NCBI GenBank assembly: GCA_030145385.1
Contig: JAQYVU010000028.1
Coordinates: forward strand, 1-48,361
Source of the DNA: Desulfococcaceae bacterium
Lineage (GTDB): Bacteria > Desulfobacterota > Desulfobacteria > Desulfobacterales > Desulfosalsimonadaceae
Length of the DNA stretch: 48,361 bases
Direction: 5' to 3'
Shown here: one piece after another, positions 4,875 to 24,042 of the stretch
Layout: each line of letters begins with the position of its first letter
How positions within the stretch are numbered: position 1 is the first letter of the stretch
Notes under the pieces: model-generated
Seen by the model: the letters and a program-made list of their open reading frames with translations, nothing else
The model's database searches: none
What the model was told of the DNA's origin: nothing
Made by a program: the position numbers and the translations under genes

Positions 4875-7505
4875 CTACCCTGCCGCCACCAACTCAAACA
4901 CCTTTTTCATGGCCGCATCCAGGTTTTCCGGTTTAGATCCCCCGGCCTGGGCCATGTCCGGCCGTCCGCCGCCGCCGCCGCCCACTTCGGCAGCCACCGC
5001 TTTAATAATATTTCCCGCATGAAACTGACCCACCAGGTCTTTGGTGACAATGGCAATCAACAATGCTTTTCCTGCATTTTCCGCACCCAGCACCACAACA
5101 CCGGACTTGATTTTATCCCGGAATTTGTCAGCCAGGTCTCGCAAAGCCGCCGGTGTTTCCACCACAACCTTTTTCGCCACCACGTTGATGCCATTAATGG
5201 ACTGAACATCATCCTCGATGTTTTCCGCAGATTTAGCGGCAATTTGTGATTTTAATTTCTCCAGCTCTTTTTCAAGGACTTTCTGGCCGGATAGCAATGC
5301 TTCCACCCGGGAAAACAAATTATCCGGCCGCTCCCTGAGCACGTTGGCTGTGTCATTTAAAACCTTTGAGACGGTCTGAATGTGGCTGATTGCGGATTTT
5401 CCGGTCAGAGCTTCGATTCTCCGCACTCCTGACGCGACACTGGATTCACTGACGATTTTAAACAACCCGATGTTGCCGGTTAATTCCGTATGGGTGCCGC
5501 CGCATAATTCCTTGCTGAATGTATCTAACGAAATCACCCGCACCACATCCCCGTATTTTTCTTCAAACAGCGCCATGGCGCCGCTCTTAAACGCCTCATC
5601 CGCGGACATTTCATTGATGGATACAGAGATGTTGTCTTGAATCCGGTCATTGACCAGGGCCTCAATTTCATTGAGCGTCTCAAGATCCACCTGCGAAAAA
5701 TGCGTAAAATCAAACCGCAGCCTTTCCGGTCCCACATGGGATCCGGCCTGGCGAACATGATCCCCCAGCACCTCCCGCAATGCGGCATGCAGCAAGTGGG
5801 TTGCCGTGTGATTGACCTCTGTGGCATTTCGCTTTTCCCTGTCCACGGTCAATGTCACGGAATCTCCTGTCCGAACGGTTCCGGACACAACCTTGCCTTT
5901 GTGTATGATCAGACCGGTAGGATCTTTGACGGTCTTTTCAATTTCCACAATCAGATTTTCTGAACTGATCCGGCCGGCATCACCGATCTGCCCGCCGGAT
6001 TCCGCATAAAAAGGCGTTTGCCGGGTAATAATTTCAACTGCCACACCGGCTTCGGCAACGTCAACAGCGTTTCCGTCATCCACAATCAGTAAAATCTCAG
6101 AATCGCAGTTCCGCCGGTCATAGCCCACAAACTCAGGCATTTTCTCGACACTGGCTGTAAAATTTTTATACGCGTCACTGACACTGGAAAATGAAACCTT
6201 TGAACGGGATTTTTCCCTTTGATCCGACATGGCCTGATCGTAACCGTCCATGTCCAGATCCAGCATGCTGTCTCGCACCACATCTTTGACAATATCCACC
6301 GGAAAGCCGAACGTGTCATAGAGCTTGAAAATGACATCACCGGGTATGACGGTATCGCCGGTTTCTTTCATTTTATTGATCGTTTCATTTAAGAGCTTGA
6401 GTCCGTTATCTAAGGTTTCTGAAAACCGCAGCTCTTCATTTTTGATCACATTGATAATAAACGCCCTGTCATCGGTAAGTTCCGGATAACCTGACTGCAT
6501 GACTTCAAAAACCGTTGCCACGGTTTCATGCAAAAAAGGATCGTTCAGGGAAATATTTCGTCCATAGCGTATCGCCCGGCGAAGGATTCTGCGCAGCACA
6601 TACCCGCGTCCCTCATTTGACGGCAGAACGCCATCGCCTACCATAAAAGCGCCTGCCCGGCTGTGATCAGCAATGACTTTCATGGCGACATCGGTGGACG
6701 GATCATCGCCCAGTTTTCGGCCGGAAAGAGATTCAATCTTTCTCATAATCGGCATAAACAGGTCCGTATCATAATTTGTCGGCACGTTCTGGGTCACTGC
6801 GGCAATTCGTTCCAGTCCCATTCCGGTGTCAATACTCGGCCGCGGCAGGGGTGTCAATTTCCCCTGTTCATCGCGGTTAAACTGCATGAACACAAGATTC
6901 CAAATCTCAAGATAGCGGTCACAATCACAGCCTGGCGCGCAATCGTCACTGTCACAGGCGTATTGCTCGCCCCGGTCAATCAGAATTTCCGAACAGGGAC
7001 CGCAGGGACCGGTATCGCCCATGGACCAGAAATTATCTTTTTCACCGAGCCGGACGATTCTATCCGCCGACACGCCGATCTGATTGTGCCATATGTCATA
7101 GGCTTCATCATCATCTAAAAATACCGAAATCCATAATTTCTCCGCAGGGAGATGATACTCATTCACCAGAAGATCCCAGGCAAACCGGATGGCGTCTTCT
7201 TTAAAATAGTCACCAAAAGAAAAATTTCCCAACATTTCAAAGAACGTATGATGCCGGGCCGTGTAACCGACATTTTCCAGGTCATTATGTTTTCCGCCGG
7301 CCCGGATACACTTCTGGGAAGTCACCGCCTTGGTATAATCCCGTTTTTCCTCTCCGAGAAATGTCCGCTTAAACTGCACCATACCCGCATTTGTAAACAA
7401 AAGCGTGGGGTCGTCCTGCGGTACCACGGAAGAACTCCGGACCAGCTGGTGATTCTGGCGTTTAAAATAATCAAAAAATATCTTTCGTATTTCGTCTCCT
7501 GTCAT
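4875..7505 (-). CDS. alaS: Alanine--tRNA ligase
   Basis: Class II aminoacyl-tRNA synthetase that charges tRNA-Ala in the cytoplasm. Full family length (about 876 residues). The N-terminal catalytic core shows DPTLLFTNAGMVQFK and YTARHHTFFEMLGNFSFGDY. The editing domain carries the zinc-binding HTATHLLHAAL and CGGTHTE motifs, and the C-terminal DHHA1-like part ends in a Gly-rich stretch (GGGGGGRPDMAQAGG). I chose ATG at 7505; a TTG one codon upstream would add one Met. It begins 15 bases after the recA stop on the same strand, the common recA-alaS order. Confidence 0.98.
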   Translation of the reverse strand: MTGDEIRKIFFDYFKRQNHQLVRSSSVVPQDDPTLLFTNAGMVQFKRTFLGEEKRDYTKAVTSQKCIRAGGKHNDLENVGYTARHHTFFEMLGNFSFGDYFKEDAIRFAWDLLVNEYHLPAEKLWISVFLDDDEAYDIWHNQIGVSADRIVRLGEKDNFWSMGDTGPCGPCSEILIDRGEQYACDSDDCAPGCDCDRYLEIWNLVFMQFNRDEQGKLTPLPRPSIDTGMGLERIAAVTQNVPTNYDTDLFMPIMRKIESLSGRKLGDDPSTDVAMKVIADHSRAGAFMVGDGVLPSNEGRGYVLRRILRRAIRYGRNISLNDPFLHETVATVFEVMQSGYPELTDDRAFIINVIKNEELRFSETLDNGLKLLNETINKMKETGDTVIPGDVIFKLYDTFGFPVDIVKDVVRDSMLDLDMDGYDQAMSDQREKSRSKVSFSSVSDAYKNFTASVEKMPEFVGYDRRNCDSEILLIVDDGNAVDVAEAGVAVEIITRQTPFYAESGGQIGDAGRISSENLIVEIEKTVKDPTGLIIHKGKVVSGTVRTGDSVTLTVDREKRNATEVNHTATHLLHAALREVLGDHVRQAGSHVGPERLRFDFTHFSQVDLETLNEIEALVNDRIQDNISVSINEMSADEAFKSGAMALFEEKYGDVVRVISLDTFSKELCGGTHTELTGNIGLFKIVSESSVASGVRRIEALTGKSAISHIQTVSKVLNDTANVLRERPDNLFSRVEALLSGQKVLEKELEKLKSQIAAKSAENIEDDVQSINGINVVAKKVVVETPAALRDLADKFRDKIKSGVVVLGAENAGKALLIAIVTKDLVGQFHAGNIIKAVAAEVGGGGGGRPDMAQAGGSKPENLDAAMKKVFELVAAG

Positions 7506-12407: not shown

Positions 12408-12505
12408 GGAAGTGCGCAGCTCACTGGTGGGGCTCCCGGACTTCAAATCCGGTGTGAGGCGTTAAAACCGTCTCGGGTGGGTTCGATTCCCATGCACTTC
12501 CGCCA
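12408..12505 (+). tRNA. selC: tRNA-Sec (anticodon TCA), CCA encoded
   Basis: A 95-base tRNA followed by an encoded CCA. It has the features that mark selenocysteine tRNA: an 8-bp acceptor stem (GGAAGTGC, 12408-12415, with GCACTTCC, 12494-12501), a long variable arm (GAGGCG...CGTCTC), and anticodon TCA (12443-12445) in the loop CTTCAAA. It would read UGA as selenocysteine with SelA, SelB and SelD, none of which are in this window. No neighbour on the same strand is close enough to suggest an operon. Confidence 0.97.
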
Positions 12506-19879: not shown

Positions 19880-19953
19880 TCTGAATAAAGCCAAATCCGT
19901 TGCGAAACGGAGACGGAAAGCCACGGATCTCATGAAGACAGCCGGGTTGCCTA
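19880..19953 (+). promoter_or_regulatory. GEMM-I (cyclic di-GMP-type) riboswitch aptamer
   Basis: Conserved GEMM-I pieces appear in order: GCCAAAT, a stem capped by GCGA (CCGTTGCGAAACGG), GACGGAAAGCCACGGATCT (consensus GACGCAAAGCCACGGGTCT), a short linker, and AGCCGGGTTGCC (tetraloop-receptor side). This is the cyclic di-GMP class; some deltaproteobacterial members sense 3',3'-cGAMP, and my by-eye alignment (a G at the position equivalent to G20 of the Vibrio Vc2 aptamer) leans to c-di-GMP without settling it. The 3' part overlaps the terminator at 19941, giving a transcriptional switch. Confidence 0.9.
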
Positions 19954-19976
19954 AGAAAAAGGTACCCGGCTTTTTT
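19941..19976 (+). terminator. Expression-platform terminator of the GEMM riboswitch
   Basis: GCCGGGTTGCC (19941-19951) pairs with GGTACCCGGC (19961-19970), loop TAAGAAAAA, then TTTTTT. The 5' arm is also the conserved 3' part of the aptamer, so ligand binding and terminator formation should exclude each other. That predicts an ON switch: ligand lets transcription through (inference). Confidence 0.85.
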
Positions 19977-20017: not shown

Positions 20018-20458
20018 ATGAAAAAAGTATTCATGATTTTAGCAGTACTATGTTTATGCATTGCTTTCGCGTCCGGCCCGGCTTTCGGGGCATCCTATTT
20101 AAAAGGCATGAAATACGGAATATTCAATATCCTGGGAATTCAGGCGGACCATACCTATCATTGCGCGGGCAGCAGCTGCTGGTCATGGACCGGCGGTGAA
20201 TCCGGGGGATCATACATATCTTACTCTGGGGGATATGGCGACTATGGTGATGCCAAATGCACATCATCGAACTGGGGTTGCCGCTTTGTTTATGCGGTCC
20301 AGGGAGTTTGTCATCAGGAAGCCAACCGCGGGCTTTATACATCCGGAAAAACGATTGCCAGAGGCGGTGTCGGCGGATATTGGCTGACAGGTCCGGTATT
20401 CGGGACCTATGGCGGCGGATGGACCGTCTGCAAGACCGCCTGCTGGTTGTGGTGGTAG
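20018..20458 (+). CDS. Secreted Cys/His-motif protein under riboswitch control
   Basis: 146 residues with a clear Sec signal peptide (1-25, ending GPAFGA). The mature part is rich in Gly, Tyr and Trp and carries six cysteines. Two blocks stand out: ADHTYHCAGSSCWSW and GVCHQEANRGLYTSGKTIAR, followed by FGTYGGGW. The invariant-looking Cys-His of GVCHQ with the early His suggests a papain/NlpC-like cysteine hydrolase or a disulfide-rich surface protein; I cannot confirm either and do not assign a function. Strong ribosome site (GGGGGGAG). Preceded by the GEMM riboswitch and followed by a strong terminator, so mainly a single-gene transcript. Confidence 0.85.
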   Translation: MKKVFMILAVLCLCIAFASGPAFGASYLKGMKYGIFNILGIQADHTYHCAGSSCWSWTGGESGGSYISYSGGYGDYGDAKCTSSNWGCRFVYAVQGVCHQEANRGLYTSGKTIARGGVGGYWLTGPVFGTYGGGWTVCKTACWLWW

Positions 20459-20493
20459 TTCATCATACGTAACATAAGCGCTTATTGAAAAAA

Positions 20494-20543
20494 CCTTCCT
20501 TTGTATGAACAGATTGCAAACTATACAAAGGAAGGCTTTTTTT
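20494..20543 (+). terminator. Strong rho-independent terminator
   Basis: 13-bp perfect stem CCTTCCTTTGTAT (20494-20506) with ATACAAAGGAAGG (20523-20535), 16-base loop, then CTTTTTTT. It ends the riboswitch gene's message; the downstream lipoprotein gene would need read-through or its own promoter. Confidence 0.92.
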
Positions 20544-20578
20544 ATATCAACCTGTCCCCAAACATTTTCAGGAGAACG

Positions 20579-21019
20579 ATGAAGCCCTGTCATCTAAAGC
20601 CGTTTATTCTTTTATCACTTATTTCCCTTATGGTTTTCGGTTGCAACAATCCCGATTCAGCGAATTCCAAAAAGATTGAAAAAAACGTCCCCCGGCTCGT
20701 GGGCACCTGGCAGCAAGCAACTATCGGTGAAGAAATAGTCACCGGAATTGTAGTCAAAATAATCTTTTCCGAACATACGCTGACGATGGATGCTCCGGGA
20801 TGCATGATCATTGGTGACTATACCACCGACAACAACACGCTCACCTATATGGTCACTGCAGTCCAAGGCGAAAGGTGCTCAAAACAACAAATGATCGGGC
20901 AAAGCGATATCATAAATTATGCTGTTACGGATGCGCAGTTAACTATGACCCCGCTTTCAGCCGGAAAAGAAAGCCAGGTTGTATATACACGGATTGATGA
21001 TAACGAATCACACCACTAG
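20579..21019 (+). CDS. Putative lipoprotein of unknown function
   Basis: 146 residues. A lipoprotein signal is visible: KPFILLSLISLMVFGC, with the modified Cys at about residue 22. The rest looks like a small beta-barrel/lipocalin-type fold (LVGTWQQA..., repeated short strands, VVYTRID near the end), similar in style to other LxGTW-starting lipoproteins; no firm family. ATG at 20579 has AGGAGAACG just before it. First of four genes that run on the same strand with short gaps. Confidence 0.75.
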   Translation: MKPCHLKPFILLSLISLMVFGCNNPDSANSKKIEKNVPRLVGTWQQATIGEEIVTGIVVKIIFSEHTLTMDAPGCMIIGDYTTDNNTLTYMVTAVQGERCSKQQMIGQSDIINYAVTDAQLTMTPLSAGKESQVVYTRIDDNESHH

Positions 21020-21082: not shown

Positions 21083-22372
21083 ATGAACAAGCGAAACAGA
21101 ATCATTTTAGTCGCCTTATTTTTCTTTTCCATGTGCACCCTGGCGCTTGGCTTATATTTATTCCCAGACAAAGAACCGATGGTTGTTGAGCGAAACGATA
21201 AAGCCCTGAAGCAAATCTTTCCCCCTCAGCCAGACAACGACCGTTCAGATGACGAGCTGAAAGAGGAACCACCAGAGAGCATAGCTCCTGCTGCTATTAA
21301 TCCGGCTCAGGCGACACAGACAGATACGGCGGCAGTGGAAACAAACCCTTATGTTTCATATCCTGAATCGTTATTTGAACTTTTGGGGATTGATATGAGC
21401 GAACTTGTTATAGAGCGTGACGCATTTAAAAACACTATTATTCATGTCAGCTGGATGGATCACATTAATGAAATTCTTAAAAATCTTGATCCTGAAAAAA
21501 AAGAGGCAATCATCAAAAATCATACGTCTCTTCTGTATATAAAAGATAAGCTCAATGAAGCATACCTGACCGGCAAAATTGATCACGAGACGTTTAAAAA
21601 AGCCCTCGCCGATTTAATGAAATGGCACCAGAAAACGTATGAATCCCTTTTAATCGAGGCGGAATACGAAGCACTTTTTGAAATCGAACCTGAGGCCGTT
21701 GATGACACAATTGACGCATTGATTGATCAAACCCCGGAGTACAGCTTTATTCTCAACCAGAATTTACTGATTGACGAGGTCAAGGAACAGATCCAGGGAT
21801 ATAAACTGGAAGAAGTCAATTCTCATTTTAAACGAATGGTGCTCGACAGAGGTGGCATTGGCAAACAGATCAATGCCGGAAAGATGACGCTTGAGCAGGC
21901 CAGAACGGCGTTAAGCCAAAGCGAGCAGGCCTTCATTGCCAAATGCAAAGAGATATTAACCGAAAGTGAAATCAATACGATTTTCGGATCTGTTACTGCA
22001 TTGGAAACCGGTGCTACACAAACAGAAGCACCGACGGTTTTGGGTAATTCTGATGAGATAGAACTCGGTTTTAAAATTGAAAATCCGGAAACCAGCATAG
22101 ATAGCATCAAAGAAAAATTTGATAAAAATAAAATTGAGGATATCAAGTTTTTTTACCAGCAAAGGGCAACGGAAAGAGAGGAACTCATCACCCGACTGGA
22201 CTCCGGTGAAATTACATCCGAAGCGCTCGAAAACATTTCAAGGGAAATGGATGCGGCATTTGAAGAAAACTGCCGGGACACCCTGACAAATGAGGAGTTT
22301 CAAATGATCTTCGGAAATCCCGACATCAAAACAGAATTCAGTGATACCGCCCCGGAGATCTCAAAGGAATGA
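21083..22372 (+). CDS. Membrane-anchored repeat protein, paralog 1
   Basis: Not recognised. 429 residues: an N-terminal signal/anchor helix (7-26), a Pro/Glu/Thr-rich linker (30-92), then three related helical modules. Module A (about 97-201) has VSWMDHINEIL and NHTSLLYIKDKL and ends EYEALFEI. Module B1 (about 219-302) ends LTESEINTIFG. Module B2 (about 327-412) starts ELGFKIENPETSID and ends LTNEEFQMIFG. The next gene repeats the A and B2 modules, so the pair arose by duplication. Very charged, probably periplasmic. Likely operon with the lipoprotein before it and the genes after it. Confidence 0.8.
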   Translation: MNKRNRIILVALFFFSMCTLALGLYLFPDKEPMVVERNDKALKQIFPPQPDNDRSDDELKEEPPESIAPAAINPAQATQTDTAAVETNPYVSYPESLFELLGIDMSELVIERDAFKNTIIHVSWMDHINEILKNLDPEKKEAIIKNHTSLLYIKDKLNEAYLTGKIDHETFKKALADLMKWHQKTYESLLIEAEYEALFEIEPEAVDDTIDALIDQTPEYSFILNQNLLIDEVKEQIQGYKLEEVNSHFKRMVLDRGGIGKQINAGKMTLEQARTALSQSEQAFIAKCKEILTESEINTIFGSVTALETGATQTEAPTVLGNSDEIELGFKIENPETSIDSIKEKFDKNKIEDIKFFYQQRATEREELITRLDSGEITSEALENISREMDAAFEENCRDTLTNEEFQMIFGNPDIKTEFSDTAPEISKE

Positions 22373-22409
22373 ATCGGTCAGGCAGCAACAAACGGAAATG
22401 AGGCCGGAG

Positions 22410-23270
22410 ATGAATCATAAAAGCCTATTCGCAGCCTGCATATCCCTCTGGCTGCTGATATTCCCAGTCGGAATAGGTGTTGCTATCACAGCGAACATAT
22501 CAGATGGCTCCCCAACGATACCCCAACAATCCCTCACTCAAAATAACGGACCAGCATCGGATGCCCGGCCGGGCATTGATACCGGCACTTCAAAAGAATC
22601 CGCTTTTTTTTATCCTGACCCGCTCCTTCAAAAACTAAAGATAAATTCATATGATATTATTAATAATCAATCGAGATTTAGAAACGACCCTATTCATATT
22701 GAGTGGATGGATCATGTTCACTCCGCACTCCCGGACATTTGCAGTCAAAAAGAAGAAACGATTATCAAAACGCATACATCACTTCTTTTCGTAAAAAGCA
22801 GATTGGACAAAGACTATTTCAGCGGTAAAATCAGTAAACAGGAATTTGCAAACCAGCTTACCGGACTGATGAAATGGTTTCAGGAAGCCAACCGGTCTGT
22901 TTTAAGCATTAAAGAATACAATGCCCTGTTCGGAATATCAGATCAGGATGAGGCTCCGGCACAGGCTTTGGATGGCGAACTCGGCTTTCCGATCAGGAAT
23001 CCGAATACAACCATCGATAAAGTCAAAGAAGCGTTTGATGATCAAGAGATCATTTCTCTCACACGTTTCTACCAAGAGCAGGCACGGGAATTTCATGACA
23101 TCAAAAATATTTATGATACTGAAAACATTCATGGGGTTGAAAAAGAGCAAATCAAAAAGGATATGGAGAGAATAGAAAGAGAATTACAGACCGCCTTTAT
23201 GAACTACTGCCGTGACAGATTATCGGATGAGAAATTTAAACTGCTTTTCGGCAGCCAGATAAACGAGTAA
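22410..23270 (+). CDS. Secreted repeat protein, paralog 2
   Basis: 286 residues, not recognised. N-terminal signal peptide or anchor (about 5-25), a Ser/Thr/Pro linker, module A (IHIEWMDHVHSAL, HTSLLFVKSRL, EYNALFGI) and one B module (ELGFPIRNPNTTIDKVKEAF ending LSDEKFKLLFG). It is a shorter paralog of the preceding gene, lacking module B1. I chose ATG at 22410, where GAGG lies 6 bases upstream; ATGs at 22398 and 22341 are alternatives, the latter inside the previous gene. A DUF1573 gene follows 58 bases on. Confidence 0.78.
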   Translation: MNHKSLFAACISLWLLIFPVGIGVAITANISDGSPTIPQQSLTQNNGPASDARPGIDTGTSKESAFFYPDPLLQKLKINSYDIINNQSRFRNDPIHIEWMDHVHSALPDICSQKEETIIKTHTSLLFVKSRLDKDYFSGKISKQEFANQLTGLMKWFQEANRSVLSIKEYNALFGISDQDEAPAQALDGELGFPIRNPNTTIDKVKEAFDDQEIISLTRFYQEQAREFHDIKNIYDTENIHGVEKEQIKKDMERIERELQTAFMNYCRDRLSDEKFKLLFGSQINE

Positions 23271-23328: not shown

Positions 23329-24042
23329 ATGAAATTAAAAACAGCTCTTCACATTATTGCCTTAATGTGTTTCTGGATCATTATTCCCAATAATGACATC
23401 GGTGCGACCGAGCCGAATCCGTCTCCTGCGGCGGTAATTGAAAAAACCACATTTGAGTTTTCTCCGGTTATTGCAGGAAGCGAAGTGACGCATCGATTCG
23501 GCATACACAATAAAGGGGACACGCCTTTAAACATTCCCGGCGTATATGCCGGTTGAGGCTGCTTAGCGGTCTCATACTCGAGACAAATCCCTCCCGGCGG
23601 GACGGGTGAAATAACATTAAAGGTTAAAACCGATGGTGAGGCAGGCAAAAAAATCAGTCAAAAAGCAACCGTATACACAGATGACCCTGACAATGCGATA
23701 TTTGAGCTGATACTGACCGGAGAAGTACTTTCTCCGGCAGATATCGACCCGAAGACCGCCCGGTTGATCGGTTCTGCAGGTTCACCGATCCGTGCCGAAA
23801 TCAAAATCACCCCCCCTGCCCCCAATCCCTTTGACATCGTAGATGCGAAAGCGGCCGACGGTGAAAACATCAACTTCTATCTGGAAAAAAAATCCGAATC
23901 CGATATCCATTATTTTATCCTTTATATTTCAAACAAAAAAAAGGAGCCCAGCCGGTATTCGGATAAAATCATTTTAACCACCACCAGCAGCATCAGTCCG
24001 GAGCTGATAGTCCGGGTGTACGGGATTATAAGGAAAAATTGA
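23329..24042 (+). CDS. DUF1573 family protein, probable selenoprotein (UGA-Gly-Cys)
   Basis: Read through a TGA at 23554-23556 (codon 76), the frame gives one 237-residue exported protein: signal peptide (about 1-27), a DUF1573 immunoglobulin-like domain (about 40-125) and a second beta-rich domain to the end. The family motif is usually S-C-G-C-T before a PGxxG strand turn. Here it reads AGUGCLAVSY, then QIPPGGTGEITLKV and TVYTDDPDNAIFELILTGEV. So UGA stands exactly where the first Cys of CGC belongs, and the Cys at 78 is kept. A tRNA-Sec gene is in the window. A conventional reading would give a 75-residue fragment. Sec incorporation is inferred, not shown. Ribosome site GGAG. Confidence 0.8.
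23557..23606 (+). promoter_or_regulatory. Candidate bacterial SECIS region
   Basis: Two hairpins follow the UGA. The first is GTCTC (23569-23573)/GAGAC (23580-23584) with a 6-base loop starting 18 bases after UGA: good distance, but no G at the loop start. The second is CCCTCCC (23589-23595) with GGGACGGG (23599-23606) around a GGC loop 40 bases after UGA: good stem and G, slightly far. Neither is an ideal textbook match. Confidence 0.4.

Follow-up and report, generated by a model that had tools for sequence, protein, structure and literature searches.

Selenocysteine (Sec) has been recorded before in proteins with the DUF1573 domain. NCBIfam holds the entry NF041425 as 'OS_HP2 family (seleno)protein', DUF1573 / PF07610 is tabulated as a selenoprotein with the motif UGC in PMC9312934 and PMC13188914, and a table of PMC2398784 lists OS_HP2 / pfam07610 / UxC with two marine sequences, without the word DUF1573. 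For the DUF1573 selenoprotein, PMC13188914 cites Zhang and Gladyshev 2007 (Olavius symbiont). The available portions of PMC9312934, PMC13188914 and PMC2398784 give no function for DUF1573 selenoproteins; in the available portion of PMC10434189, a Bacteroides DUF1573 gene appears in the table of an iron-dependent stimulon.

We analyzed a stretch of 48,361 nucleotides from Desulfococcaceae bacterium, referred to as the window, which carries a DUF1573 gene interrupted by an in-frame TGA. The first-pass annotation had described the product as possibly undescribed and had not placed DUF1573 among the known selenoprotein families; this part of the claim fails, because NF041425 and the three published tables already cover DUF1573/pfam07610. 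The window gene adds a member to the listed OS_HP2/DUF1573 selenoprotein family and does not establish a new one. What is new is evidence for selection on a hairpin after the UGA, together with a conserved gene neighborhood. The family is common among the relatives of the source organism, and its two gene settings, one with a HAD hydrolase and one around the window copy, provide the first testable leads on an Ig-fold Sec-Gly-Cys protein; this gene setting merits follow-up. The features relevant to Sec insertion are the following.

23329 to 24042, + strand: DUF1573 / OS_HP2 gene, very probably for a selenoprotein; 237 residues plus a TGA stop, with an N-terminal hydrophobic, signal-like helix and then two beta-rich (Ig-like) domains
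23554 to 23556, + strand: in-frame TGA, read as Sec76, the first position of U-G-C, from the translation and site typing in homologs
23560 to 23562, + strand: codon of Cys78, the presumed partner of Sec76, from the translation and alignment
23569 to 23584 (arms 23569 to 23573 and 23580 to 23584), + strand: SECIS-like hairpin GUCUC-AUACUC-GAGAC, bases 13 to 28 after the UGA; in UGA homologs, matching changes on the two arms preserve the stem
12408 to 12505, + strand: tRNA-Sec gene (anticodon tca) found by ARAGORN and Rfam, one of which gives the end as 12501; it lies 11 kb upstream and belongs to the Sec machinery, not to the DUF1573 operon

The TGA at codon 76 is the sole interruption of the frame, and no sign of a sequence error was found at this codon. 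The gene also ends with a TGA as its own stop codon, so the reading of UGA76 is site-specific. Family similarity extends over both sides of the interruption, as first noted from the letters alone: the read-through translation matches PF07610 at residues 37–133 with 61.6 bits (gathering cut-off 26.1) and NF041425 at residues 38–133 with 116 bits (curated cut-off 100). NF041425 specifies Sec (UGA) or Cys at the first position of UGC/CGC, and the window protein has UGA there. Likewise, the placement of the UGA on the first Cys of a C-G-C motif was confirmed in an alignment of 36 sequences (34 with UGA and 2 with Cys), in which Sec/Cys76, G77, and C78 are invariant columns. We assign a probability of roughly 0.92 to the reading that the gene belongs to the OS_HP2 / DUF1573 family and inserts Sec at codon 76. 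Judged from these and the following comparisons, it is very probably a genuine selenoprotein gene with a predicted secreted product.

The window copy shares with OS_HP2 (NF041425) the domain, the UGC motif, and a score above the curated cut-off. It differs from other members in lying outside the HAD/polA setting, beside two genes that we term q429 and q309, and its product is 27–42% identical to the aligned OS_HP2 members, except for one ortholog (L050) with 65% identity. Cys-type PF07610 proteins, such as those of loci L116–L129 from Verrucomicrobia, Lentisphaerae, Melioribacteraceae, Tannerellaceae, and others, have the same domain, whereas they carry Cys instead of Sec at the first motif position and show no significant hairpin pressure after this codon. 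Within L116–L129, L117 is an exception with UGA.

NF041425 matches are present in 130 of 146 genomes of the genus, family, and order (over the cut-off in 119) and in 119 of 297 genomes sampled across the phylum (over the cut-off in 35); single-TGA matches extend beyond the order, to other genomes of the phylum. With 13 matches, G067, a genome of the order, has the highest number in the genus, family, and order listing. Of the three DUF1573 genes in the source genome, the window copy and one at contig C39:36433 have one TGA each; the third is free of TGA and has the motif C-A-C. In a scan of named genomes, a single-protein query returned no relative and an alignment query returned 80 loci, 67 of them, judged by their titles, from Desulfobacterota or 'Deltaproteobacteria', including Olavius Delta 1 (L051) and the ortholog L050.

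We typed the motif at 124 sites, after dropping 15 stretches whose alignment was gapped at this position, and found 94 UGC, 22 CGC, 3 CAC, 2 CKC, 1 UGT, 1 CRC, and 1 NEI. After removal of duplicates, 113 distinct sites remained (85 UGC, 21 CGC, 2 CAC, 2 CKC, 1 UGT, 1 CRC, and 1 NEI); the loci had been selected for being the best matches, so that these shares do not represent population frequencies. The Cys/UGA exchange for which the first-pass annotation had proposed to align homologs at codon 76 is thus seen, with 85 UGC against 21 CGC among the distinct sites. Homologs with a residue other than Cys, which it had named as evidence against its reading, are confined to a single case: Sec or Cys is found at 123 of the 124 typed sites, and the exception, NEI, comes from a Tannerellaceae protein (L127), in which it lies in an additional domain. 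None of the 124 sites has TAA or TAG at the motif codon. L117, from Syntrophobacteraceae (motif codon after position 5273), keeps the UGA and has Thr in place of the second Cys (U-G-T).

On a tree of 97 rows, the Cys label (8 rows) requires 4 changes, at least 3 of which are forced by well-supported branches; the count compares the Cys rows with the other labelled rows and excludes 34 unlabelled ones. We read the pattern as repeated swapping of Sec and Cys. Behind the UGA, NG86 estimates between the window gene and five orthologs (L135, L139, L148, L149, and L163) gave dN of 0.15–0.27 and dS of 0.88–1.35, and for a sixth ortholog, L147, NG86 gave no dS. By this measure, the part of the gene downstream of the UGA changes in the manner of coding sequence. 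The view that a random stop is unlikely at this codon gains weight from the recurrence of UGA-G-C at 85 of 113 distinct related sites and from dN well under dS downstream.

The region after the UGA was compared with synonymous-codon shuffles. For 85 UGC genes, the mean z of the hairpin energy was -1.82, with p<0.05 in 41 of them and none above 0; for 21 CGC genes, the mean z was -0.38, with p<0.05 in none, and the two groups differ with a Mann-Whitney p of 1.5e-7. Because many of the 21 CGC genes are from other phyla, the contrast was repeated with nine CGC genes of the same broad lineage (seven from the original set and two added), which gave a mean z of -0.27 and 0/9 at p<0.05, versus -1.81 and 42/85 for the UGC genes (p 8e-5).

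Pairing in the stem was evaluated in an alignment of 76 UGA genes without length change, from which nine of the 85 had been omitted before counting (L078 and eight with a one-codon insertion: L001, L098, L103, L104, L105, L106, L109, and L110). Across the five stem pairs, 89.2% of cells are paired, compared with 81.5 in shuffled sequences, and 32 cells show double changes, compared with 8.9; neither value, nor the covariation score, was reached by any of 500 shuffles, while for the other two of the five measures 48 and 50 of the 500 shuffles attained the observed value. Slid registers of the stem pair in 29.5–53.7% of cells. Four of the genes with a one-codon insertion (L001, L103, L105, and L106) also have the hairpin, shifted by a few bases. 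In L089, L030, and L099, which read ...R-E... behind the motif, the stem register is shifted, which would fit a stem that formed anew once Gln had changed to Glu.

Taken alone, the window copy is unremarkable: it has the 5-bp stem with a z of -0.90 (p 0.21 against synonymous shuffles), and in the minimum-energy fold of its 47 nt the UGA region adopts another pairing. On the 76-row alignment, RNAalifold gave no consensus structure, probably because of the mixed registers. According to the available portion of PMC9312934, some known selenoprotein genes fail the bSECISearch consensus model. The shuffling and pairing results indicate that, taken as a group, the UGA genes are under selection to keep a stem-loop behind this codon, and that the Cys genes are not.

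Most of the Sec machinery was located. The tRNA-Sec gene in the window, seen in the first pass, was recovered by both ARAGORN and Rfam, selA is present in the source genome with 610.7 bits, and selD is split over two contigs, the end of C68 (L167) and the start of C112 (L168), whose ends share 144 bases. The selD gene has an in-frame TGA of its own. The proposed check for selA and selB was borne out for selA; selB was not found in the source assembly (209 contigs, 97% complete) with TIGR00475, PF09107, or a SelB protein of the genus as query. The best match to a SelB query covers residues 3–365 of 631 at 33% identity and lacks the C-terminal part, and a weakly matching fragment at a contig end is presumably the start of EF-Tu. 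Counting the source genome, 9 of 11 genomes of the genus carry selB over the cut-off; the two others are the source genome and G006, which has pieces of the gene. We read the missing selB as a probable assembly gap.

Two readings without Sec were considered. If the gene were a pseudogene or contained a sequencing error, the TGA would be a real stop or an assembly mistake, and both the draft state of the assembly, with its 209 contigs, and the failure to find selB could be held in favor of this. Against it stand the same TGA at 85 of 113 distinct sites, with no TAA or TAG among the 124 typed, dN well below dS behind it, and the energy contrast and covariation of the hairpin in UGA genes, and we reject this explanation as extremely improbable on the strength of the recurrent TGA, the selection behind it, and the hairpin. 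A reading of UGA as another amino acid, for example Trp or Cys through a code change or a suppressor, found no support and is just as improbable: the event is site-specific in a gene that itself stops at TGA, tRNA-Sec, selA, and selD exist, and a hairpin is favored behind the codon in UGA genes only. General reassignment of UGA was rejected on these three grounds. Insertion of Sec, which the first-pass annotation had called probable, is the reading upheld by the Cys/UGA exchange, the hairpin, most of the Sec machinery, and the selection behind the UGA.

A structure model built with 36 sequences (pLDDT 92.8, pTM 0.74) consists of an N-terminal helix followed by beta strands, and places residues 75–78 between the strands formed by residues 71–74 and 79–83. 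The first Foldseek matches are chains of the ciliary central apparatus, with PDB 2qsv from Porphyromonas at rank 15; the query TM values are low, at 0.31–0.47 over the first 30 rows. A match to the HYDIN/VesB Ig family PF22544 agrees with these Ig-type matches, and 2qsv also appeared in a PDB sequence search (E 0.022). Matches to troponin I in the same type of search (E 0.0077–0.055) were taken as chance. The window protein thus resembles HYDIN/CFA65/VesB-like Ig domains (PF22544) and 2qsv in its Ig-like fold, although the Foldseek TM is low. To our knowledge, these Ig domains are not defined by a U/C-G-C site. Thioredoxin-fold selenoproteins (UxxC, CxxU) likewise place Sec near Cys; the window protein differs from them in being all-beta and in its U-x-C instead of U-x-x-C spacing. 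A thioredoxin-like fold was rejected, given the all-beta model after the N-terminal helix and the U-x-C motif.

In a set of 74 UGC proteins shorter than 300 aa, 67 contain no Cys or Sec besides the motif beyond residue 30, and the N-terminus counts as hydrophobic in 69 according to a crude measure. Sec76 and Cys78 therefore most likely form a pair in a putatively exported Ig-like protein, and the U-G-T motif of L117 indicates that such a Sec-Cys pair is not universal. We consider a redox role of the window protein an even bet. The U-G-C motif could instead be a metal- or cofactor-binding site together with the near-invariant His55: H55 is invariant in the 36 aligned rows, and a His-x-aromatic element lies 15–26 residues ahead of the motif in 85 of 89 UGC and 6 of 7 CGC proteins. 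Structural metal sites seldom contain Sec, which counts against this alternative, and we regard it as unlikely, though not negligible.

In our preferred account, SelB and Sec-tRNA would use the hairpin after the UGA as a SECIS element to insert Sec76, and the N-terminal signal would export the protein. A reversible selenenylsulfide could then join Sec76 to Cys78, both of which are placed in a loop that connects two strands of the first Ig-like domain. The protein may act as a thiol/selenol redox protein of the envelope, or as a redox-regulated adaptor, on a putative partner. The DUF1573 gene is linked to a HAD hydrolase gene in many relatives; the window copy is part of a second block, related to the envelope, that also holds q429 and q309. 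The conserved neighborhood hints at a cell-envelope role. Upstream of the DUF1573 gene, this block contains the following features.

19881 to 19955, + strand: c-di-GMP-I-GGC riboswitch aptamer (RF03167, 64.5 bits, gathering 59)
20018 to 20458, + strand: q146, which follows the riboswitch directly; a small protein rich in Cys whose N-terminus is signal-like
20486 to 20544, + strand: terminator-like strong hairpin with a U-run, after q146 and before the likely q172 start
20501 to 21019, + strand: q172, lipoprotein-like, likely start 20579, with a Lipocalin_4 match below the cut-off
21083 to 22372, + strand: q429, probably exported, paralog of q309 (31% identity over 251 aa)
22341 to 23270, + strand: q309, probably exported, directly upstream of the DUF1573 gene, with a hydrophobic stretch after the likely start at 22398 or 22410; paralog of q429

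Neither q309 nor q429 scored above the cut-off of any Pfam or NCBIfam family, and q146 did not exceed that of any Pfam family. Homologs of q146 occur in six related loci with 58–95% identity. In the tree, the window copy belongs to a separate group of nine rows, supported at 100/99, with q309 and/or q429 homologs upstream; the two genes are conserved beside this Sec-DUF1573 clade.

The window copy could be tied to the riboswitch block, with a part in attachment, biofilm, or export, instead of being a general redox protein. In the window and in four of eight relatives searched (L135, L139, L147, and L159), q429/q309 and the Sec gene are preceded by the c-di-GMP-I riboswitch and q146; three of the other relatives (L148, L149, and L050) begin too late to show the riboswitch region. 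The nine rows with q309/q429 upstream are set apart from the rest of the tree by one branch. The strong hairpin between q146 and q172 makes riboswitch control of the Sec gene uncertain, and the riboswitch may control q146 alone. This hairpin is missing from a terminator scan, whose loop limit it exceeds; the scan gave no more sites than shuffles. Moreover, at L161 q146 is present and no riboswitch exceeds the gathering score, and no q172 match was found in L159. Overall, we view a tie to the riboswitch block as possible and rather doubtful. Still less probable is the more specific proposal that the window copy founds a sub-clade that, with the exported paralogs q429/q309, would form a c-di-GMP-responsive envelope or secretion module, the selenoprotein serving a surface-attached lifestyle. 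In Oleidesulfovibrio alaskensis G20, the only c-di-GMP-I riboswitch precedes norR, and the available portion of PMC11124144 does not link it to DUF1573.

Outside this block, the family is often found beside a HAD hydrolase gene, which lies downstream on the same strand in 35 of the 80 loci, some of them shortened by contig ends. In 25 of these 35, the first possible HAD start either overlaps the DUF1573 stop or lies no more than 9 nt from it. An upstream PriA cluster and a downstream PolA cluster, each identified through one member, occur in 17 loci each. The C39 copy of the source genome has a HAD gene and a PolA-like frame behind it, and by tblastn a HAD gene lies downstream in 46 of the 97 tree rows. 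In seven Desulfamplus-type loci (L089, L094, L095, L096, L099, L100, and L101), type II secretion genes (G, E, F, and an N_methyl protein) follow the DUF1573 gene instead of HAD.
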